Virus record (IMG/VR): IMGVR_UViG_3300037264_002017
Location: 1-21,744 of that record
Length of the DNA stretch: 21,744 bases
Origin: a virus
Strand: one strand, 5' to 3'
Of this stretch, positions 2,103 through 20,302 are shown one piece after another. Both the position numbers and the translations under genes were made by a program. How positions within the stretch are numbered: position 1 is the stretch's first letter; the number at the start of each line of letters is the position of its first letter. A model generated the notes under the pieces. That model made no database searches and was not told where the DNA came from. It saw nothing but the letters and a program-made list of their open reading frames with translations.

Positions 2103-2450
2103 GTGACGATCACGCTCCCAATCCGGCTCGTATCCGAGGCCAACATGCGCGACCACTGGGGGAAGAAGGCCAAGCGTGTGGCGCAGCAACGTGGGCTCGT
2201 CAGGCTCGCGCTCTGGCACCACCGGCACGAGTTTGGCGAGACGGCGGTGGTAACGCTCACGAGGATCGCCCCGCGCGAACTGGACAAGCACGACAATCTC
2301 CGTGCAGCGATGAAAGGGGTCGTTGATGGCGTAGCAGACGCCTTCGGACTACCGAACGACCGCGATCCGCGCGTCGAATGGCGGTATGCTCAGCGACGAG
2401 GGAAAGTGAGGGAGTACGGCGTGGAAATCAACATCGAGGCGGCATCATGA
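2103..2450 (+). CDS. RusA-like Holliday junction resolvase
   Basis: 115 residues, close to the about 120 of E. coli RusA. RusA enzymes are dimeric, Mg-dependent endonucleases that cut four-way DNA junctions and in phages help tidy replication intermediates before packaging. Visible here: an N-terminal beta strand (TITLPIRLVSEANMRDHW), then R-x-LDKHDNL-x2-AMK-x3-D (D61, D64, N65, K71, D75) and a later acidic pair N85-D86-R87-D88, matching the order of catalytic Asp residues and of the conserved Lys region in RusA. The start GTG 2103 has GAGGG 4 nt upstream. It lies close to a DNA methyltransferase gene, a common phage pairing. The assignment is by motif only; a short unknown phage protein with the same fold is the alternative. 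Confidence 0.72.
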   Translation: MTITLPIRLVSEANMRDHWGKKAKRVAQQRGLVRLALWHHRHEFGETAVVTLTRIAPRELDKHDNLRAAMKGVVDGVADAFGLPNDRDPRVEWRYAQRRGKVREYGVEINIEAAS

Positions 2451-2668
2451 AATGGTATCGACAACCAGACGGGTCGTTCGAAACGGGGCCGCTGCTCGTC
2501 GGCGGAGAGACTGAACCCAAGCTCGTTGTAACCAAAGTCGCAGTTGGTGATTGGTTGTGCACGCAGGGCGACCGGGAGGTAGTGCGGGCGTACACGCACA
2601 ACGAAGTCAAGCGCCTGGCCGAACTCCAAACCTACGCGAGGATGAGATGCTCGGATTTGAAGGGTTGA
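2447..2668 (+). CDS. Hypothetical protein, 73 aa
   Basis: ATG 2447 overlaps the TGA of the RusA-like gene (ATGA), which decides this start over in-frame codons further upstream. The protein is a compact, beta-looking domain (KWYRQPDGSFETGPLLVGGE, then VVTKVAVGDWLCTQGDREVV) with a C-terminal helix. No family is recognised. Its 3' end overlaps the start of the methyltransferase gene by 22 nt in another frame. Confidence 0.65.
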   Translation: MKWYRQPDGSFETGPLLVGGETEPKLVVTKVAVGDWLCTQGDREVVRAYTHNEVKRLAELQTYARMRCSDLKG

Positions 2669-3381
2669 AACAACACCCAAATTGCGTATACCACGACGAT
2701 TGGGTGGTCCTGCTCAATACCAAATGGGAACACGTGCAACTCGAGCCGGTCGGGGCCGTCATTATGGATGCCCCATATAGCGAGAAGACCAGCAAGGGAC
2801 AACACGAACACCGCAGCGGGTTTGCCTACGATTCGTGGAATGCGACCGACGTCCACGCGTGTGTCCACGCGCTGAGCCCCATCTGCCGCGGTTGGTTTGT
2901 GTCGATAACCGACGATGTGCTGTTCAACGAGTGGCGGAACGCGTACGCCAACGTCAAGCGAAAAACATTCCAAACAGTCTCGGCGTTTATGCCTGGGATG
3001 ACCGTGCGGTTGTCAGGTGACGGTCCGTCGTCGTGGAGTCTACCGATTGCAGTCGGTCGCCCACGTGGTTTCAAATGGAGAACACTACCCGGCGGGTACA
3101 CGGGCGAGCCGAACCGAACGAAATTCAAAGGAGCAAAACCCGAATGGCTGATGTGCGCCCTCGTGCGTGATTACACCAAGGATGGCGACGTAGTGCTTGA
3201 CCCATGCGCCGGATCAGGTACCACCGGTCGTGCGTGCAAGGATATGGGCAGAAGATGTATCCTCATTGAAGAACGGGAGAGCGCATGCAAGGCGACAATA
3301 AAGAGATTACGCCAGGAACCGTTGGGATTCTATCAACGGAGCCAAAACCCAGAACAGTTGGACATCGGCTCAGTCATATAA
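2647..3381 (+). CDS. Beta-class DNA methyltransferase (N6-adenine or N4-cytosine)
   Basis: 244 residues from ATG 2647 (GAGGA at 2638-2642). It transfers methyl groups from S-adenosylmethionine to DNA bases, in phages usually to escape restriction. Motif IV is D41-A-P-Y44 (DAPYSEKT) near the N-terminus, and motif I (VLDPCAGSGTTGRA, about 184-196) is near the C-terminus, followed by an acidic motif II (IEERE, 207-211). The order IV, then target recognition region, then I is that of the beta class. DAPY in place of the usual DPPY is a variant. No restriction nuclease gene is adjacent, so it is probably an orphan enzyme. 33 of its first 50 codons end in G or C, lower than the early genes around it, a hint of separate origin. 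Confidence 0.92.
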   Translation: MLGFEGLKQHPNCVYHDDWVVLLNTKWEHVQLEPVGAVIMDAPYSEKTSKGQHEHRSGFAYDSWNATDVHACVHALSPICRGWFVSITDDVLFNEWRNAYANVKRKTFQTVSAFMPGMTVRLSGDGPSSWSLPIAVGRPRGFKWRTLPGGYTGEPNRTKFKGAKPEWLMCALVRDYTKDGDVVLDPCAGSGTTGRACKDMGRRCILIEERESACKATIKRLRQEPLGFYQRSQNPEQLDIGSVI

Positions 3382-4068: not shown

Positions 4069-4257
4069 CTACGGGGTCACCCGGTGATACTCGACCATCG
4101 TCTCATCCAGCACCGCGAGCTGGTCCTCGTCGAGCGCCACGTCGGAATCCACCTGCACTCTGCCATCGGTGAGCACGAGTAACCCGGTCACGGATGGGAG
4201 CGCGTTCTGGATCGCTCGCAACAAGGACGTGCCCACTGGCTGGTATAAGTAGATCAC
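4069..4257 (-). CDS. Hypothetical protein, 62 aa
   Basis: GTG 4257 overlaps the stop of the upstream gene (GTGA). The protein has a short helix (TSLLRAIQNALPSV), beta strands (TGLLVLTDGRVQVD) and an acidic C-terminal half (LDEDQLAVLDETMVEYH). Function unknown. Tight packing between two late genes is the main support. It may be a minor fibre-associated or lysis-linked protein, but nothing in the sequence decides this. Confidence 0.6.
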   Translation of the reverse strand: MIYLYQPVGTSLLRAIQNALPSVTGLLVLTDGRVQVDSDVALDEDQLAVLDETMVEYHRVTP

Positions 4258-4826
4258 GGGTTGACCAATCGTATCACAGGCATCGTGTTTGCCACAGATG
4301 CCACCGCCTGGCCTCCATCAGCGACGGCGCGCGGGTCGAACGTCGCCGGGAGTTCCCCGCTCGCCGGGATGCCCGTGGTGAACGACAGGGGGCGCATCCC
4401 AGCCGGCACGTTCTGATTCATTGTGTCGTAGGATTGCATGCCGTAGGCGCGCATCGTGTACCCCCCCGCCACGGAACGTCCGTAGAGTAGGTAGCACTCG
4501 CCCGCCCAGACGAATGCTCCGGGCGTTTCCAAATAGAAGCCGCCGGCTGCGGAGACATCCACGGTGCCCCCCGCGATCAATGCCGCGACGTCTGGGCGCC
4601 CACCGGGTACTTGGTAGAGGCCGAGCCGGCACATGGCCCCTACGCCCGCCGTCGTGATGCGAAAGCCGATGCGCGCGAGTGCCGTGTCGCGCTCGACTCG
4701 GTAGACTCCACCCTCGTAGTTCGCCTGGTCGCCGCGAGTGCCTTGTATGCCCACTGGCACGACAGGCACCAAGATCATGTCGGTCGCGGATGCAGCCGGA
4801 TCGGGGGTCTGCTGGAAACCCGACAC
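4254..4826 (-). CDS. Probable virion protein downstream of the fibre gene
   Basis: 190 residues from GTG 4826, just after the stop of the Gly-rich fibre gene. The sequence alternates beta strands with Gly turns (ALARIGFRITTAGVGAMCRL, GFYLETPGAFVWAGECYLLY), as in beta-sandwich receptor-binding or fibre-tip domains. There is no signal peptide or catalytic motif. By position it could be a distal tip, adhesin or chaperone for the fibre. I do not recognise a named family. The ribosome site is weak (CGAGC), so it may be made by coupling with the gene before it. Confidence 0.65.
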   Translation of the reverse strand: MSGFQQTPDPAASATDMILVPVVPVGIQGTRGDQANYEGGVYRVERDTALARIGFRITTAGVGAMCRLGLYQVPGGRPDVAALIAGGTVDVSAAGGFYLETPGAFVWAGECYLLYGRSVAGGYTMRAYGMQSYDTMNQNVPAGMRPLSFTTGIPASGELPATFDPRAVADGGQAVASVANTMPVIRLVNP

Positions 4827-4832
4827 GCTCGA

Positions 4833-6851
4833 TCAGGCGTACGCCTGCCCGATGCTCGTGATTCGCACCAGCGCACCGTCGTAGCTCACCTCGACGCGCA
4901 CCAAGTCCACCGCGTTCGCTGCGACGCTGAGCACTGGATCGACGCCACCGGGTGACTGCGCATTCGCGTAGGCGAGCGTGTTCGCGCCAGCTGCTGACTG
5001 CTCGATTTCGAGGATGGCGCTCTTGCCAGCGAGCGCGGCGAAGTTCGTGAACGTGAGCGTCGTGTTGCCGCCGAGCTTGAAGCGCATGTAGTTCGAGACG
5101 GCGAGGTCGAGGTTGTTCGCGCCCGCCGGCAGCGTGCCGAAGTCGATCGGGAACGTGCGGAAGGAGCCCGAATGCGTGAAGGACGGCGTATCGCTCAGGT
5201 TGCCGGATTCGATGGCGCGCGTGTCCACGTCGCCAATGACGACGCGACCCTGTAAGCCCCCAGAGCCACCGCTCGGACCACCGCGCACCGTGGCGTCCCC
5301 ACCATCGCCGCCGCTTGCGTCACCTGATGTGCCACCGTTGCCGCCTGCGACGAGTGCGTTGCCAGCGTTCGCGCCGTTGGTTCCCGAGCCTGCTTGCGAC
5401 GTGCCGCCAGCGCCGCCGATGAGCGATGCCGCACCGCCTGCGCCGGGTGTCGAGCCGGCCGTTGCACTGCTGTTACCACCGTCGCCGGCTTGCGTGAGAG
5501 ATGCACCGCCGACGCCGCCTGCGCCAGCGCCCGTCGTCGTCCCGCCGTTGCCGGCATTGCAAGTGGACGCGCCACCAGCGCCGCCGTTTCCCGCGCCGTC
5601 TCCTGCGCCGCCTGTGCCGGCCACGGTGGCATAGGCACCACCAAGACCACCAGCGCCGCCCGCGCCGCCGCCAGGGCCAGCGTTAGCAAAAGTTACCTGA
5701 TAGGTGCCGCCCCCGCCGCCCGCGCTGCCACCGTCACCGGCACCGCCGCCACCGACGGTAATATTGACCGAGGCTCCCTGAGCGCCCGCCGAACCAGAAC
5801 CGGCACCGGCCGAACCACCAGGATTCGTGGAGATTTGGATCGGGCCGGCAGAGCCCGGAGTTTTGCCGGGATCGGTGCCACCGTCCGCAGCGGAACCACC
5901 GAAAATTGACAAGCCGCCACCAGAGCCACCAAAGCCAGTCGTAGTTGTGCCGCCGTTGCCGGCCAGGAGCGCGATAGAGCCACCATTGCCACCAAAGCCG
6001 GCGGCAGCCGCGCCGCCAACACCAGAAGTTAGGGTGAGCGCACCGCCATCGCCGCCATTGCCGCTCGTTGCACCTCCTGCGCCACCGTCCGCCGCTGGTA
6101 GCGATACGCCTCCCCCAGCGCCTCCGTTTCCGGTTGCACCACCTACACCGCCAGCAGTCGGGAAAAACGTTAGGCCACCAGAAGCACCGCCAGCGCCCGC
6201 ACCGTCTCCTGCACCGCCGCCACCACCACCGAAAACAACTGCGCCGCCAAGACCGCCGTCTGAGCCTGAACCTGCGCCCGCATTACCGCCTGCTTGGCCA
6301 CCCAAGATCAGATCGCCTGCGGGGCCTGGTAAATTGCCGGGATTTGTGCCTCCGTCCCCACCCAAGCCAGCGCTCCATTGGAGCGGACCGCCTGCCCCAC
6401 CATTGCCGAGCGTGGCCGCTCCACCGTTCCCGCCTATTGCTTGAACACCACCACCACCACCGCCCTGGCCGCCTCCGGTGTCTGCGCCACCATCCCCGCC
6501 TCTGAAAGTTATCGAATCTGCGGTCCCACCGTTGCCGCCTGTGCCATCCGCACCGTTTGCAGTGAAGATGCTCTGCACGGTGGCACCTTCTGCAATCTGC
6601 TCCTTGCCCGAGCGCACCGGATACCCCAGCGCCGTCTCGCCACCGATCAAGTCCCAGAACGCCTCACCCGTGCCCGCCGCCTTTGCGAGGTACCAGCCGG
6701 GGCGCGTGCCGCCGGTTTGGCGCGCAACCTTGCCCACGTCCGCCGCTGCGACGGCAACAGCTTGCCGCGCTGCTTCGTCCGCGTACTCAGCGAACTGGAC
6801 GTAGTGGATGCCGTCCGTGGTGGTCAGTAGCCTGTGCTTTTTTGTTGCCAT
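4833..6851 (-). CDS. Glycine-rich repeat tail fibre protein
   Basis: 672 residues in three parts. Residues 1-98 form an N-terminal domain, probably virion-attaching, with a pattern often seen in phage fibres (DVGKVARQTGGTRPGWYLAK). Residues 100-534 are very Gly-rich: about 19 imperfect units of some 20-27 residues, each with one short hydrophobic strand (ALTLTSG, SIALLAG, GLSIFGG, SVNITVGG) followed by a Gly-rich stretch such as GNGGAGG. Residues 535-672 form a beta-rich C-terminal domain with a typical phage fibre core (YMRFKLGGNTTLTFTNFAAL). I infer an adsorption fibre, with the repeats as a beta-helical or polyglycine-helix shaft. It follows the internal protein genes, the place of T7 gene 17. 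Mycobacterial PE_PGRS proteins look similar but lack these end domains. Confidence 0.8.
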   Translation of the reverse strand: MATKKHRLLTTTDGIHYVQFAEYADEAARQAVAVAAADVGKVARQTGGTRPGWYLAKAAGTGEAFWDLIGGETALGYPVRSGKEQIAEGATVQSIFTANGADGTGGNGGTADSITFRGGDGGADTGGGQGGGGGGVQAIGGNGGAATLGNGGAGGPLQWSAGLGGDGGTNPGNLPGPAGDLILGGQAGGNAGAGSGSDGGLGGAVVFGGGGGGAGDGAGAGGASGGLTFFPTAGGVGGATGNGGAGGGVSLPAADGGAGGATSGNGGDGGALTLTSGVGGAAAAGFGGNGGSIALLAGNGGTTTTGFGGSGGGLSIFGGSAADGGTDPGKTPGSAGPIQISTNPGGSAGAGSGSAGAQGASVNITVGGGGAGDGGSAGGGGGTYQVTFANAGPGGGAGGAGGLGGAYATVAGTGGAGDGAGNGGAGGASTCNAGNGGTTTGAGAGGVGGASLTQAGDGGNSSATAGSTPGAGGAASLIGGAGGTSQAGSGTNGANAGNALVAGGNGGTSGDASGGDGGDATVRGGPSGGSGGLQGRVVIGDVDTRAIESGNLSDTPSFTHSGSFRTFPIDFGTLPAGANNLDLAVSNYMRFKLGGNTTLTFTNFAALAGKSAILEIEQSAAGANTLAYANAQSPGGVDPVLSVAANAVDLVRVEVSYDGALVRITSIGQAYA
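5250..6554 (-). repeat. About 19 tandem Gly/beta-strand units, 60-80 bp each
   Basis: This is the coding region for residues 100-534 of the fibre protein. Each unit encodes a 4-6 residue strand and a GG-rich linker. The units differ strongly in DNA sequence but keep the protein pattern, so selection seems to act on structure rather than recent copying. The opposite strand reads as spurious Pro-rich ORFs. Confidence 0.8.
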
Positions 6852-6855
6852 GGGT

Positions 6856-7020
6856 TCAGTCCGTGATCACTTGCGTGCCATCCTCGGCCGTTACGAGCGT
6901 CACGCCGTCCTCGGTGACGACTTCGACGGCGGGTGTCGCAGCCGGTGACTCGGCTGGCTCTGCCGAGCGCATGGGGCGCCTGCCAGCCGAGCCCAGGAAT
7001 CTGCGACCGCTGCCAGGCAT
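6856..7020 (-). CDS. Small protein, 54 aa
   Basis: ATG 7020 overlaps the stop of the upstream gene (TGATG); the open frame extends further upstream, but only as an out-of-frame shadow of that gene. A basic N-terminus (MPGSGRRFLGSAGRRPMRS) is followed by an acidic tail made of a repeated strand pattern (EVVTEDGVTLVTAEDGTQVI). Function unknown. Similar very short acidic tails lie next to fibre genes in some phages, but I cannot name a family. The fibre gene starts 4 nt after its stop. Confidence 0.6.
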   Translation of the reverse strand: MPGSGRRFLGSAGRRPMRSAEPAESPAATPAVEVVTEDGVTLVTAEDGTQVITD

Positions 7021-7394
7021 CAGCTTACCGTGACGCGAATCTCGCCAGCACCCGCGGTGGTGCGGTAGGCGATGTGGGTGACGGCGATGGATCCAGGCGT
7101 TCCGGGCCGCTCGAACGCGAGGCCCTCCTCGTAGCGGTAGTCCCGCTGCTCGCCCGCCGACAGTTCCATGCAGCGGGTCACACCCGCGACCGCCGCCGGG
7201 TCCGCGACCGTTGCCGCGTCCCCGAACAGGATGCACAGCGGGTTCGCCCCGGTGTTCTGGACGGTGATGAAACGCCCCTGACCGGCCGAGATGTCCGCCA
7301 CGGCGTTGACCGCCGCCACAGCGACATCCACGAGGATGACCTTGCTTTCCAGTGGCGGCAGCGCATCGGCTGCCAGGGATTCCGCTGCGCTCAT
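7020..7394 (-). CDS. Small beta-rich virion protein
   Basis: 124 residues, ATG 7394 overlapping the stop of the upstream gene (ATGA). The core GRFITVQNTGANPLCILFGD, then ELSAGEQRDYRYEEGLAFER and GEIRVTVS, matches a widespread phage pattern in which a beta sandwich displays a QNTG..P..I.FG motif. Such proteins are usually minor head or tail structural components; the specific role is unknown. It lies between the ejection-protein candidate and the fibre genes, which supports a tail or fibre-attachment role. Confidence 0.7.
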   Translation of the reverse strand: MSAAESLAADALPPLESKVILVDVAVAAVNAVADISAGQGRFITVQNTGANPLCILFGDAATVADPAAVAGVTRCMELSAGEQRDYRYEEGLAFERPGTPGSIAVTHIAYRTTAGAGEIRVTVS

Positions 7395-13996: not shown

Positions 13997-16900
13997 TCAG
14001 ACCTTCCTGGCGGTGCCCTGCAACATGCCGCCTTCTTTCACCCCATATTCTAGCATGAGCTCGAGTGCTTTGTAACCAGACTGCACCGTACCCACTTCCG
14101 TATCCTCGAACTCCAACCGCATCGACTGGCTCTTCTGCCTCGGCATCTTGACCTTCACGGTGTAGGTGCGCCCGACCGCGCCGGGGTCCAGTGACGCATC
14201 CGGGAACGTCCAGGTCCCGCTCGCCGCGGTGTCGTCGTTGTCGTGGTAGCTCGAGACTTGGAGGTTGTGCTGGCTCGCGTAGTCCGCCAAGAACCTGATG
14301 TTCCGCGTGCGCTGCCAGCCCGCAAGGCCGCCGAACTTGAACCACGGGCTCTGAATCACCAACGGGATGAAGGGCAAGTAGAACACCCCATCGTCGACGT
14401 GCGAGATGTCCCGGTAGACGGGTGGGATGGCCCACGCCGCGATGATGATTTGGCCGTTGGCTCCGAGCCCGGGCCGGTGTTGAAGCATCACCAGGCGATC
14501 GTCGAACACGCCGATGTCCTGCGGCTGGTCGCTGTTGTCGTCCGGGTCGTACACGACCGGGGCTGCGCCCTGCTGGATGTAATCGTGCCGGGTCCAGCGT
14601 CCCCACCTGTAGTTGTAGCAAAGGACCACGTTGGTCCCCTGGATGAGGAAGCACACCTCCTTGGTCTTCTGCACCGACACCGCGCGAGCGACACGCCTGC
14701 CGAGCCCAGGTAACAGGTCCACGACGGGACCACCGATGAACTGAAGGTTCAGCCCGCGGTCGAGCATGTAGATGCCGGCCACGGACTCGAAGAAGATACC
14801 GGCCTCGGAGACTTCCACCGAGTGTTTGTTGTTGCATCCGATGTCGCTCGAAACTTCGCGCGCCTGGCCGAAGGTGCCCTGCCCGATGGCGTTGGGGCCC
14901 TCGGATGCGACGGCGTAGATGGCTGAGTTCTTGAACAGCACGAGTTTCTCGTCCATCGCCGCGCATGCTGTGAGGTCGCCCCGGCCCGGTGGCACACGCA
15001 GACGCAGCACCGTGGAGAACTCGGCTGCGAAGTCCTGCGCCTTCTGTTTGGAAATCCACACCTCGTCCGGGTCTTGTCCACTGATGACGACGATGCGCTC
15101 CTGGTACACGGTCACATCCACGGGCGCTGGCGGCGGGTCGGACGCCAACTCGCCCGAGTCGGTGTAGAGCGGGTCCGACGAGAACGTCGTCGTGCTCAGT
15201 TGCGAATCAGGCGTGCTGTCTGTGTAGGTGACAAACGGCCACACCGTGTACGGCCCAGCCGGCGGAATGAGTGGGATGGTCGCCACGCGGAAGAACAAAC
15301 TGCCGCCGATGAGGGTGCGGAAGATCCCAACCCTGCACTGCGAGACTTGCGTTGCCTGCCCCTGCCCGGCGACGTACACGGGCAGCCGGACGGCGAATAG
15401 CACGTTGCGGTTGGGCGCCGCGAGCGTGATACTGCGCGATTGAGCGGGCGAGGAGCGGATCAAATCCCCCCGGTCGTCGTACTGCTCGAAGATGGCCGTG
15501 TACTGGTAGGTGCCGGCGACAAGCCCGGTTCCGGCGGCGGCGACAATGGTGATGAACGGCCGGAAGTTGAATGCCTGCTCGCGCAGGACGCCTCCGGTGA
15601 AGCTGTGGAGCGTGCCCCCGGCCACGTAGGCGTTGTCGGCCTGCTCGGCGTACCTGAGCGGGAACAGGATGTCGTGCTTCACGCGCAGGATATCGGGACG
15701 CGATTCGTAACGCCCCTCATTTAGGTTGGTGTCGAAGTTGCGGAAGTTCTTGCGCAGCAACACGGGTACGAGCCATTCGGTCGAGTTCGGATCTCCGGTG
15801 CTCTCGTCGAAGCGCACAGGGACCGCGCTTGACTTCGGGTGGAGAAAGAAGTGGTTTTGCGCCGTCTCGACATTCAGACGCCCGATGGGCAACTGCTCCC
15901 ACGGGACCACGCCCGACTTGTTGCCGCCGAGGTCGTACTTCGCAACCAGAATAACGTGTGGCTGCGGTGTTGAGTCCACTACCAACTGAATGTTCAGGAC
16001 GGGCCAGGTGAGCGGCGTTGGCGACTGCTTCTGCGTCACGTAGTAGTAGGGCTTGCCGACGACACGCCCCCAGAGCGGAGTGGCGAGCGGGCTCGCGAAC
16101 GCCATCGAGAGCGGGAAGTTCGAAAACTGGATGCGCTCGGTCCCGATGAATCCGTCCGCTGCGTCGTTGCCGATCGCAAGCAACTGCCGCGCGGTACCCA
16201 CGCCCTGGCTCGAGCGCACCAGGAACAGTGCACTGTAGGGTAGTATCGGCATCCCGGTCGCGACGCCGGGTACAACCGCGGTGTACAGCGTGTTGATGCC
16301 GATGACGTTCGGGACCGTGGTGTTGTACTGCTGCTGGTACAGGATGACTGCGCCCAACGAATCAGTGATCTGACTCTTCGCGTAGATGCACAACTGGCCC
16401 CGGTTGGCCGCTTGCAAGACGCCGGTCGTCACCGTATCGACGACGGCGCCGTTCGGAGAAATCCTCTTGGTCGTCAAGGCCGGTACTGCGTCGTCATTCC
16501 AGTAGACGACCACGGAGTTGAGGCCCGACTGGCTGGACGTGTCGTAATGCCACAAGGCTTCGCCAGTGGCGTTCTGAGCGCACGCGCTGATGGTTGCGAG
16601 CGCCGCGCCGCTTCGCGTGAGGGTGTCGAGATTCAGAACCTCCAACACCAACGAGAACGTCGCGCCGGTCGGCACCAGGTAGAAAATGTGGGCGCGAGGC
16701 GTTGCGCTGCCGGCCGTTGCGTTCTCAACGCGCACTTGCACGGGCGCTACCGGGGCGATGCCGGATGCGATGAGCGTCTCTGGCACGATGATGACGCCGG
16801 TCGTGGCGTCTAGAACCTGGTAGTAAATGACCTGGCGCGTGTTGGCCGATTGGGTAGCGGCGCTGTAGACCACGACGATGTAGTTGCCGCAGTAGGCGAT

Positions 16901-17248
16901 GTCGACGTTCAGGTTGTCCTCGGTGGACTGCAAGCTGGCGAAGCGCAAAATCTCCGGGCCCGTCTGCTCCGAGATGCGCTCCATCGCCACGTCTGGCCGG
17001 TCGTTCACGCTGAAATCGTTCTGCCCGATGGTCGCGAGCTTGTCCCCGGCGATGATGAGCGATTGCTGCCCCTTGAGGTCAGCCTGAGCGAGTAGGTCCG
17101 CAAGCCCCTCGCGCTTCTCGAGGCGCCCGTCCCGGCGCCAGACGCCGTTACGGCAGCCGATGAGGTTCTGGGGGACGACGCGGGAGTCCGTCTCCTGGTC
17201 GATGCCAGCGGCGAACGGGTAGTTGAGCTTTTGGGTGGGGAGCACCAT
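13997..17248 (-). CDS. Tail nozzle protein (T7 gp12 / tail tubular B type)
   Basis: 1083 residues, longer than T7 gp12 (about 790). It would form the hexameric nozzle closing the short tail and conducting DNA. The N-terminus has the characteristic pattern (LNYPFAAGIDQETDSRVVPQ, then GCRNGVWRRDGRLEKREG). The body is almost entirely beta, with repeated blade-like stretches as expected for a beta-propeller (DEVWISKQKAQDFAAEFSTV, DEKLVLFKNSAIYAVASEG, GIFFESVAGIYMLDRGLNL). Its place two genes after the adaptor supports the call. P22-type DNA stabilisation proteins share the propeller and are the alternative. The start ATG 17248 overlaps the upstream stop (TGATG). Confidence 0.85.
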   Translation of the reverse strand: MVLPTQKLNYPFAAGIDQETDSRVVPQNLIGCRNGVWRRDGRLEKREGLADLLAQADLKGQQSLIIAGDKLATIGQNDFSVNDRPDVAMERISEQTGPEILRFASLQSTEDNLNVDIAYCGNYIVVVYSAATQSANTRQVIYYQVLDATTGVIIVPETLIASGIAPVAPVQVRVENATAGSATPRAHIFYLVPTGATFSLVLEVLNLDTLTRSGAALATISACAQNATGEALWHYDTSSQSGLNSVVVYWNDDAVPALTTKRISPNGAVVDTVTTGVLQAANRGQLCIYAKSQITDSLGAVILYQQQYNTTVPNVIGINTLYTAVVPGVATGMPILPYSALFLVRSSQGVGTARQLLAIGNDAADGFIGTERIQFSNFPLSMAFASPLATPLWGRVVGKPYYYVTQKQSPTPLTWPVLNIQLVVDSTPQPHVILVAKYDLGGNKSGVVPWEQLPIGRLNVETAQNHFFLHPKSSAVPVRFDESTGDPNSTEWLVPVLLRKNFRNFDTNLNEGRYESRPDILRVKHDILFPLRYAEQADNAYVAGGTLHSFTGGVLREQAFNFRPFITIVAAAGTGLVAGTYQYTAIFEQYDDRGDLIRSSPAQSRSITLAAPNRNVLFAVRLPVYVAGQGQATQVSQCRVGIFRTLIGGSLFFRVATIPLIPPAGPYTVWPFVTYTDSTPDSQLSTTTFSSDPLYTDSGELASDPPPAPVDVTVYQERIVVISGQDPDEVWISKQKAQDFAAEFSTVLRLRVPPGRGDLTACAAMDEKLVLFKNSAIYAVASEGPNAIGQGTFGQAREVSSDIGCNNKHSVEVSEAGIFFESVAGIYMLDRGLNLQFIGGPVVDLLPGLGRRVARAVSVQKTKEVCFLIQGTNVVLCYNYRWGRWTRHDYIQQGAAPVVYDPDDNSDQPQDIGVFDDRLVMLQHRPGLGANGQIIIAAWAIPPVYRDISHVDDGVFYLPFIPLVIQSPWFKFGGLAGWQRTRNIRFLADYASQHNLQVSSYHDNDDTAASGTWTFPDASLDPGAVGRTYTVKVKMPRQKSQSMRLEFEDTEVGTVQSGYKALELMLEYGVKEGGMLQGTARKV

Positions 17249-17595
17249 CAGAACACCAGGAAAGTGTAATCGCCAGCATCCTGGATGAACAGTTCCAAGG
17301 TGTTTTTATTGTTCACGAAATCAGCCCGGTAGAACGGCAACCTCGGCCCCACGACCACGCCGAGCGCGCGTTGTACGCGCTTGAGGAGCCAGCCGTTGGC
17401 CTTGAAACCAAGCCCGTGGTTGAGACGCACGCGCGAGTTGGCCAGGATACCCGGGGCGACAATCTCGACGCCGTTGCCGTTGAATTCGCGCGGTGAGCCG
17501 ATGAGTTCGAGGAAGAACCTATCCTCGGCATCCTGGCGGCGGTTGCCGTTCCTGTTCTCGGCGTCGAGGTACGGCGGTGGGACGACCTTCGGCAT
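17248..17595 (-). CDS. Small virion-region protein between adaptor and nozzle
   Basis: 115 residues. It includes NSRVRLNHGLGFKANGWLLK, a HGLG-x3-GW pattern common in small phage structural proteins, followed by short strands ending in a hydrophobic C-terminus (DYTFLVF). The N-terminus is charged and Arg-rich. The position between T7 gp11-like and gp12-like genes, which are adjacent in T7 itself, suggests a tail-associated structural role. The start ATG 17595 is preceded by GAGGAG, partly overlapping the stop of the gene before. Confidence 0.68.
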   Translation of the reverse strand: MPKVVPPPYLDAENRNGNRRQDAEDRFFLELIGSPREFNGNGVEIVAPGILANSRVRLNHGLGFKANGWLLKRVQRALGVVVGPRLPFYRADFVNNKNTLELFIQDAGDYTFLVF

Positions 17596-17601
17596 GGCTC
17601 C

Positions 17602-18291
17602 TCAGTAGAGCCAATCATCGTAATCCCTGGTGACGTCACCAACAACATCGGGCAACCCGTCGTCGCGACTCGGCGCAGCAGCGCGGATTCTGCCGATGAG
17701 GGATTGCTTCTCGAGCAAGAGCACCGACACGTCACTTTCCTCTTTGGTGAGCATTTTGATGGCAGCGTCGATGATGACGTATTCCTCCCACCCACCGTGG
17801 AAATTGAACACATCACCGTTCGCAACCAAAATCGGCGGATTCGGGATATATTGAAGAGTTATCGTGTACCCACCATCGGGGATGGGAGCGAAAACAATCT
17901 GCTCCTTTTTGAGCCTATAATACAGTCTCGCCCCACGGAACCACCCGGGCGATGTCAGGTCTTGATACCTGTTGCGTTCCGCGAATGGGAACGGGAACAA
18001 AGAGACCGTGCCGCCGCCTACCGCGGCATCAACACCCGCCATGCGGTAAAAATCGGCCGGTAACGAATACGCAGCAACGCCAGATGACGTCACGAACGGA
18101 GTGCCAGCTGTGGCGTAATACTCGTCGCCATTCGCCTCGATGATGAGGTCGTAAAGCTCAGCCAATGAGTTGTTGATATACGAGTTCAGTTCCGAGTCGG
18201 GAACGAAACTCGTGGATGCCGAACTGCTCTCGGCATCAGCGCGTTGCCGAGCCTGTGTGCGAAGGGTCGAGAGTGCGACATCGCGCGCCAT
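17602..18291 (-). CDS. Head-tail adaptor (T7 gp11 / tail tubular A type)
   Basis: 229 residues. The protein forms a ring between portal and nozzle. The N-terminal pattern (LRTQARQRADAESS, then FVPDSELNSYINNSLAELYD) is typical of podophage adaptor proteins, and the following strands (AAYSLPADFYRMAGVDA, ITLQYIPNPPILV) fit the beta part of this family. T7 gp11 is about 196 residues. It ends with an acidic-aromatic tail (RDYDDWLY). The start ATG 18291 lacks a clear ribosome site and follows the previous stop by 9 nt, so reinitiation is likely. Confidence 0.8.
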   Translation of the reverse strand: MARDVALSTLRTQARQRADAESSSASTSFVPDSELNSYINNSLAELYDLIIEANGDEYYATAGTPFVTSSGVAAYSLPADFYRMAGVDAAVGGGTVSLFPFPFAERNRYQDLTSPGWFRGARLYYRLKKEQIVFAPIPDGGYTITLQYIPNPPILVANGDVFNFHGGWEEYVIIDAAIKMLTKEESDVSVLLLEKQSLIGRIRAAAPSRDDGLPDVVGDVTRDYDDWLY

Positions 18292-18982: not shown

Positions 18983-20302
18983 TCAGGTTCCGGAAGTTGA
19001 CGGCAAGGTCACCCGGCAGTTGTAGCCAGGCGCCATGCAACCAAGCTGCCCGTAATAGCCGGTTCGGATTTCCACCGAGTCGGCGTTGGCGTCCCAGATG
19101 AACCGCTGACCGAGACCTTCCAAGATCTTCGGGGCTTCTCCGAGTGAAGCCAGCACCCAGGTGTCCAACTGCAGCATGAACGCCGTGTCCACGATACAGT
19201 TGCGGTCGGCAACCACGCGCAGGATTCCGTGATCCGCCTGCAACAGGACCGCACGGAAGCCAATTTCGGCGTCTTCCGGCAATCCACCTGGCTTCACATC
19301 ATGATACTCGATGCGTGAATCGAGCAGCTTCACCAAGTCGCGCACGTTGCGCGGGTGCATGAACACGTAATCAGGCGTCCCACCACCAATGGCATTGGTC
19401 TTGGCCGCCGCATCGATGAGCGCTTCCTCGGTGGTCTGCCCGGATCCGTCATGCTTGACGCCACCGAGACGGACTGGATCTTCGGTTCGGACCACGCCGA
19501 AGAACGCAGGAGCGGTGACCGTGACCGGCAACCATGCGTCGAGCCCCTTGATCTTGGCGTTGTAGTCGCCCTGGACGAAGATGAAATCGTTCGCAACGAC
19601 AGCCGGAATTCCCGCCGTCCAGTTCCCGGAGGCCGTCACGGTCCCCAAGTTCCGGTCCACCGCGGTGATGCTGACCGTGCCAACACGAACGCCGGCTCCG
19701 CCAGTACCATCATCGACCGACACTTGCAACTTCATTCCAACTTCGAACGCCGTAGCGTCGGTTGGGTCCACCAGCGTGATGGTCGGAGTGCCTTCACCCG
19801 ACAGGATGCGCCCGATAGCACCACCACCGTTGCGGTACTCCGCGATGGAGAGCGACCTTGCGACTTGGTTCAGGATACCGTCGATTTCGGCGGTGGCCCC
19901 TCGCATGAAGGCGCCCCTATCTGAGGCCGACGCCTGGATGGTCTCGAGTTCGATGGACGTGAGACCGTAGTCCTTGGTGCGCGTCAGCAAGAAATCCCGG
20001 TACACGCCGGCCGTCTTGTTCGACTGCGCGGTAGCGAACGAGGCACTGCGGCCTTGCGGGTTGCCGGAAGTGAGCACCAAGGGCATGTTGCGGCCCTCGA
20101 ATACCGTGAACTTCGGCACCATGGCGTGCAGCGGGTTGTTCTTGTATACAACTGTGCGCACGCGCTTGTTATCGTACAACTGCTTGAGCGCCGCATCGAA
20201 CGTATCGATATCGAGCGCAGCACCAAGCGCGAGAAACCCAAGACTCAGGAGCCAACCCCACATCATGCTGGTGGCGATGGAACCGATTGCCGCAATAATC
20301 AT
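18983..20302 (-). CDS. Major capsid protein
   Basis: 439 residues of HK97-fold type. Typical features: the N-terminal arm region (DIDTFDAALKQLYDNK), FEGRNMPLVLTSGNPQGRSA, an E-loop-like part, an inserted beta domain at about 165-265 with repeated strand pattern (ITLVDPTDATAFEVGMKLQV, GTVSITAVDRNLGTVTAS), and a core (GGTPDYVFMHPRNVRDLVKL). The start ATG 20302 has GGAGGG 8 nt upstream, so residues 1-30, which lack any charge and are hydrophobic (MWGWLLSLGFLALGAAL), appear genuine. It follows the scaffold gene by 19 nt. An ORF in another frame continues after its stop. Confidence 0.92.
   Translation of the reverse strand: MIIAAIGSIATSMMWGWLLSLGFLALGAALDIDTFDAALKQLYDNKRVRTVVYKNNPLHAMVPKFTVFEGRNMPLVLTSGNPQGRSASFATAQSNKTAGVYRDFLLTRTKDYGLTSIELETIQASASDRGAFMRGATAEIDGILNQVARSLSIAEYRNGGGAIGRILSGEGTPTITLVDPTDATAFEVGMKLQVSVDDGTGGAGVRVGTVSITAVDRNLGTVTASGNWTAGIPAVVANDFIFVQGDYNAKIKGLDAWLPVTVTAPAFFGVVRTEDPVRLGGVKHDGSGQTTEEALIDAAAKTNAIGGGTPDYVFMHPRNVRDLVKLLDSRIEYHDVKPGGLPEDAEIGFRAVLLQADHGILRVVADRNCIVDTAFMLQLDTWVLASLGEAPKILEGLGQRFIWDANADSVEIRTGYYGQLGCMAPGYNCRVTLPSTSGT

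Follow-up and report, generated by a model that had tools for sequence, protein, structure and literature searches.

What kind of structure is encoded by a long, regular, glycine-rich stretch in the middle of a viral fibre-type protein, and is that structure a known one? The window, i.e., the whole stretch of DNA that was analyzed, is a contig of 21,744 bases from an uncultivated virus, and the gene in question is laid out on it as follows:

4833..6851, minus strand: gene for a fibre-type virion protein, a 672-residue ORF, assigned on the basis of C-terminal PHROG tail-fibre matches and its position in the virion-protein module
6558..6851, minus strand: N-terminal region, residues 1 to 98, without a clear family
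5247..6527, minus strand: 19 tandem Gly-rich units, residues 109 to 535, identified by autocorrelation, a unit table, a unit HMM, a triplet test, and mirror symmetry
5229..5246, minus strand: final strand RVVIGD, residues 536 to 541, read from the sequence, joining the repeat to the C-terminal domain
4836..5228, minus strand: C-terminal fibre domain, residues 542 to 672, with PHROG and phage ORF matches

The encoded protein is thus ordered as an N-terminal region, a 19-unit Gly-rich shaft, and a C-terminal domain. The N-terminal region, whose best PHROG match was a family of unknown function (E value, 0.045) and which had one viral match, 23 residues long, is, judging from its position, the probable virion-attachment part. 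The C-terminal 133 residues, on the other end, gave weak matches to tail fiber protein families in the PHROG scan (phrog_9017, E value of 5e-4; phrog_7760, E value of 6e-3) and also matched some phage ORFs, with E values down to 1.6e-5. That the repeat region serves as a phage fibre shaft is a reading in which we place more confidence than in the fold proposed for it below, and a fibre role is also in line with the families matched by other proteins carrying the repeat (tail fibre, baseplate-fibre connector, tail spike, and head decoration). On the plus strand, opposite the repeat, lie long, proline-rich ORFs (5113-5634, 5827-6444, and 6478-6804), which are unlikely to be genes and correspond to glycine codons read antisense.

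An earlier interpretation of this DNA (referred to here as the sequence-only reading) had proposed about 19 copies of a unit consisting of a short hydrophobic strand and a GG-rich linker, spanning residues 100 to 534 (window positions 5250 to 6554) and ending in a last strand, RVVIGD, that leads into a fibre-like C terminus. Nineteen units were indeed delimited, with RVVIGD directly behind them, and the unit table bore out the strand-and-linker layout; the region was right, but the repeat starts some nine residues later than proposed, at residue 109. Units measure 21 to 24 residues (mean, 22.8; SD, 1.2), except for the final one, which is cut to 17, and core-to-core spacing over the 19 units is 21 to 25 residues, with 17 at the end. 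Compared with permutations, the autocorrelation of hydrophobic positions peaked at lags 22 to 24 (z = 4.8 at 22 and 5.5 at 24), with a harmonic at lags 44 and 45 (z = 4.1 and 3.6), while that of glycine peaked at lags 21 to 24 (z up to 3.5) and reached a z of 4.9 at lag 45. Both residue classes are therefore periodic, and the lack of periodicity that the sequence-only reading had named as evidence against itself was not observed.

Little of this regularity is visible at the DNA level, again as proposed. Unit-to-unit DNA identity averaged 61%; shuffling the codons of the units gave 57%. Within the array, exact repeats of at least 15 nt were absent, on which ground slippage or fresh DNA duplication is rejected as its source. 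With DNA identity this low and exact 15-nt repeats lacking, the regularity resides in the protein and represents an old, selected pattern rather than a young tandem array. On a larger scale, units 2 to 6 were similar to units 9 to 13 (7-unit offset, P = 0.0018, or 0.025 when corrected over offsets 1 to 10) and residue identity reached its maximum at lag 157 (z = 4.8), defining the following feature, which we read as an old block duplication:

5637..6458, minus strand: 7-unit (157-residue) higher-order repeat, residues 132 to 405, based on unit similarity and lag identity

Comparable long-range repeats were found in four other loci (L244, L116, L242, and L024).

Centered on the middle residue of its h-x-h hydrophobic triplet, the consensus of the 19 units reads GGxGGx-hxh-x(G)GxGG, followed by a short variable loop. 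The cores (VTI, VSL, IQI, and LTL) are alternating and beta-branched and look like short beta strands. Around the 12 strict cores of the query, glycine accounts for 71% of residues at offsets 3, 4, 6, 7, and 9, versus 11% at offsets 2, 5, and 8, on both sides, a bias seen in none of 1,000 shuffles; with hand-set centers for all 19 units, the corresponding values are 70% and 16%, and in the relatives described below they are 60% and 14% (0 of 200 shuffles). Moreover, the glycine pattern is mirrored around the core, in that the left and right profiles of the query correlate at 0.86, which none of 300 shuffles reached, and those of 334 cores from relatives at 0.91 (P = 0.003), a value that became 0.95 over the 215 cores left once those matching the search patterns were dropped. 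Relatives of the 21- and 22-residue spacing classes carry consecutive Gly-Gly-X triplets ahead of the core.

Because the 3-residue Gly-Gly-X period extends over both flanks, polyglycine-II arms fit better than simple glycine turns. In models of PGRS domains, the glycines of such triplets face inward in polyglycine-II helices (PMC9436101, PMC10216338). Our leading reading, to which we assign a probability of roughly 0.5, is that, in the tandem Gly-Gly-X/h-x-h units, arms of the polyglycine-II type would be packed about a belt of hydrophobic residues. The shaft would be built by tandem repetition of a unit of 22 to 23 residues, in which a beta-like h-x-h triplet sits between two Gly-Gly-X arms and a variable loop of a few residues leads to the next unit. 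The arms may adopt extended helices of the polyglycine-II type, with adjacent segments packing side by side and arm glycines pointing inward; the hydrophobic triplets would stack as an uninterrupted belt, and the loops of variable residues would lie exposed at the edge. With more units, the shaft that separates the C-terminal domain from the N-terminal attachment part would become longer; as a whole, it is presumably trimeric. A polyglycine-II-type structure had already been suggested by the sequence-only reading and is favored by the mirrored triplets, although this preference derives from sequence and not from structure; the mirror symmetry might also arise if the chain made a hairpin turn at each h-x-h triplet.

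Structure prediction, one of the checks proposed at the time, was run on a single chain. AlphaFold returned a pLDDT of 36.8 for the full protein from a single sequence and, for eight units with a 22-row alignment, a low-confidence model (pLDDT, 56.6; pTM, 0.34) containing zero DSSP elements. Both pLDDT values are too low for a fold call, and missing strands at a pLDDT of 56.6 do not demonstrate polyglycine II. Foldseek found no match to this low-confidence model in the PDB, and its four weak matches in BFVD, all to uncharacterized proteins of uncultured Caudovirales (TM scores of 0.13 to 0.17), were set aside. The low pLDDT, the lack of a fold or sequence match in the PDB, and the absence of an S74 domain from the query all count against the polyglycine-II reading.

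The unit is not confined to this protein. Viral contigs were scanned with two DNA patterns, one encoding GG[DN]VTIxGG and one spanning two units, with at least 120 matches each, and the loci fetched from these matches yielded at least 51 nonredundant Gly-rich regions. Among the matches listed, core spacing in 51 regions showed a main peak at 15 to 18 residues (231 intervals, with 16 and 17 at the top) and a second one at 20 to 24 (54 intervals; mode, 22); most relatives thus have a 16- to 17-residue unit, and the query falls in the rarer 22 class. The idea that the 22 class is the 16 class plus one triplet per side was dropped, since, according to the position profiles, it is mainly the arm preceding the core that is longer in the 22 class. 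Eight query units could be aligned in register with L172, L144, L235, L152, L202, L176, L134, L214, L167, and L128, and the 22-residue unit itself recurs in L172, L176, L144, L152, L134, L167, L202, and L235. With an HMM built from the query units, relatives yielded more copies than locally shuffled sequences did, against a high background due to composition alone. Finally, the repeat is left through a VxIGDxxT motif in the query and several relatives, if not in all members (compare RVVIGDVDTRAI in the query with SVIIGDQNTAAI in L076 and AVTIGDATTSAV in L235), the repeat-ending strands of L235, L076, L018, and others being VTIGD, VIIGD, and VYVGD. In core spacing, mirrored Gly-Gly-X register, and VxIGDxxT exit, the query is therefore a member of this GGX/h-x-h repeat class.

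The search for the unit pattern in other phage proteins, also proposed earlier, thus had a positive outcome, and the claim of a selected fold is supported, since individual positions are constrained although DNA identity is low and since unrelated proteins show the same register. These two observations make a disordered, flexible Gly-rich spacer without a fixed fold a very improbable account, despite the pLDDT values of 36.8 and 56.6, the first of which comes from a single-sequence prediction that was expected to perform poorly. Domains accompanying the repeat in 43 viral members include tail fibre, baseplate wedge-fibre connector, tail spike, head decoration, T4 gp9/10-like, depolymerase C-terminal sandwich, and lectin domains, each type in one or two members. 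Judging from this variety, the repeat behaves as a portable module that serves as shaft or spacer.

In bacterial genomes, the exact 22-spacing pattern gave a long list, and most matches listed lacked a tandem repeat. ORFs with a run of 21- to 24-residue spacings were nevertheless found in Uhrbacteria (L267 and L296), Liptonbacteria (L287), Nomurabacteria (L345), and others; in these Patescibacteria bins, the 22-residue unit sits in very large ORFs, candidates for prophage or cell-surface proteins. Another bacterial bin encodes a repeat of the query-type unit directly followed by a KVGIGTTTP stretch and a Peptidase_S74 chaperone (L261:3563-6784). Since the S74-type domain of phage T5 is a trimeric intramolecular chaperone (PMC4690869), a trimer is supported for at least this protein; in the query, Pfam detected no S74 chaperone domain.

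This bacterial relative bears on the best-surviving alternative to the polyglycine-II reading, namely, a beta-solenoid or triple-stranded beta-helix, in which each h-x-h strand would form one rung and the glycine stretches would be turns, as in other trimeric phage fibre shafts. Such a fold, which we regard as a reasonable possibility, is suited by the alternating beta-branched cores (VTI, VSL, and IQI) and by the S74 chaperone on L261, phage examples of which are trimeric (PMC4690869). However, turns need no strict Gly-Gly-X period reaching 8 to 9 residues on either side of the core, and the alignment-based AlphaFold model had no DSSP strand, at low confidence.

We consider it unlikely, though less so than disorder, that the units form a sheet like that of brush or PGRS domains, one edge of which would consist of the triplets, as tight and exposed turns, and the other of the variable loops; the protein would then touch lipid-rich surfaces with its hydrophobic edge. 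PGRS models do pair a regular, hydrophobic edge with an irregular one (PMC9436101), polyglycine-rich brush domains that expose hydrophobic patches are reported from phage tail hubs (PMC13243795), and the mirror symmetry around the triplet fits a hairpin. The core residues, on the other hand, are beta-branched V, T, and I and not turn formers, and a Gly-rich ORF of Mycobacterium gordonae (L299) that was caught by the pattern has irregular hydrophobic spacing.

Is the polyglycine-II-type arm lattice, if real, new? Polyglycine-II and other Gly-rich domains have already been described in phage fibres and hubs. Polyglycine-II precedents are gp38 of phages S16 (PMC6851490) and PP01 (PMC12892980) and the predicted PGRS domains of mycobacteria (PMC9436101); Pam3 gp24 and the brush domains are further Gly-rich cases. 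Salmonella phage S16 gp38 (PDB 6F45) is likewise a phage fibre component with Gly-rich motifs split by variable segments (PMC6851490) but is a 249-residue tip adhesin with long glycine runs and without a tandem h-x-h unit, and no sequence relation between it and the query emerged from the PDB search (E values up to 10). Gp24 of myocyanophage Pam3, a trimeric fibre with stacked Gly-rich motifs whose dihedral angles are near beta (PMC9608196), has, by description, 12 motifs in six loops at the tip, whereas the query has 19 tandem units in mid-protein. The polyglycine-rich brush domains of siphovirus hubs (Alishewanella phage LSH1 and mycobacteriophages) share the combination of glycine with hydrophobic patches but are described as fingers on a beta helix at the C terminus of tail hub proteins (PMC13243795). 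Mycobacterial PE_PGRS proteins also contain Gly-Gly-X triplets, in predicted polyglycine-II sandwiches (PMC9436101), yet they are cell-surface proteins with an N-terminal PE domain, and the query, having no Pfam or NCBIfam match, has no PE domain. Collagen-like shafts consist of G-X-Y triplets; the query has no Pfam Collagen match, and its register is Gly-Gly-X with hydrophobic cores. Trimeric beta-helix fibres with an intramolecular chaperone, lastly, have a C-terminal S74 domain, which is lacking in the query and present in L261.

No Pfam, NCBIfam, or PHROGs family matched the query repeat, no Pfam or PHROGs family matched the repeat class in general, and the query had no match among PDB sequences at E values up to 10. 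A tblastn search of 50,697 phage records, run with the complete fibre, with its C-terminal domain alone, and with three relatives, yielded nothing save one short match obtained with relative L172, a result that is no evidence of absence, as low-complexity masking conceals the repeat. No related locus was found with the fibre or its C-terminal part. The proposal of a new shaft architecture hence fares in two ways: no curated family describes the unit, but phage structural proteins commonly contain it, and the query protein is thus not novel by itself. Its presence in dozens of unrelated structural proteins of phages and in some proteins of bacteria makes the unit look like a widespread building block rather than a one-off. 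We found no literature description of this tandem unit, in a search outside of which most subscription papers fell; the S16 gp38 paper mentions no more than four further PDB structures in which similar motifs occur (PMC6851490), and brush domains are said to be difficult to follow through sequence searches, with the spread of polyglycine-rich domains among phages being called an open, interesting problem that is poorly served by such searches (PMC13243795). Only tentatively, and against our own expectation, do we raise the broader idea that the repeat represents an undescribed, widespread fibre-shaft fold, a polyglycine-II arm lattice of Gly-Gly-X triplets pinned by a beta-like hydrophobic belt, which would be carried by fibres and baseplate-linked proteins of phages and by some proteins of bacteria, Patescibacteria among them. 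If that fold is true, a large set of unannotated fibre proteins would be explained. The regular, idealized unit with its clear consensus makes a good structure target, and mirrored Gly-Gly-X around h-x-h every 16 to 17 or 22 residues offers a search signature where masked BLAST found nothing.

The fibre gene belongs to a run of virion-protein genes on the minus strand, with the following neighbors:

4254..4826, minus strand: 190-residue gene, next on the same strand, an ORF
7020..7394, minus strand: small 124-residue gene upstream of the fibre gene, an ORF, with a 114-residue gene at the same place in related phage G002
7391..10213, minus strand: 940-residue gene further upstream, the synteny anchor with G002 (E value, 1.8e-25)
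13997..18291, minus-strand run: tail and virion-structure matches
18983..20302, minus-strand run: capsid-protein match (phrog_14242)

The 190-residue gene, for which neither a family match nor a viral relative was found, could, from its position, encode a protein that tips or caps the fibre; its identification as a jelly-roll tip related to L065 found no support in the search. In G002, whose capsid protein is 46% identical, the 940-residue neighbor is kept and is followed by the 114-residue gene and then by a 467-residue protein without a Gly repeat, in our reading of its sequence a fibre. Given this different protein in the fibre slot, the slot seems to carry different shafts in related phages, which suggests shaft exchange between them. 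Several small genes come after the 467-residue protein (L251, G002:C1 14500-26000; the record behind L004). A search of genome contigs with the capsid protein, made to find a host, gave no match. In the window itself, the minus strand between 7391 and 13993 holds large virion-module ORFs of 940, 723, 344, and 226 residues without a family match, some of which are rich in Gln, Ala, and Pro, and on the strand opposite the virion genes lie a DNA methyltransferase (2551-3381, plus strand) and a possible RusA-like resolvase (2103-2450, plus strand).
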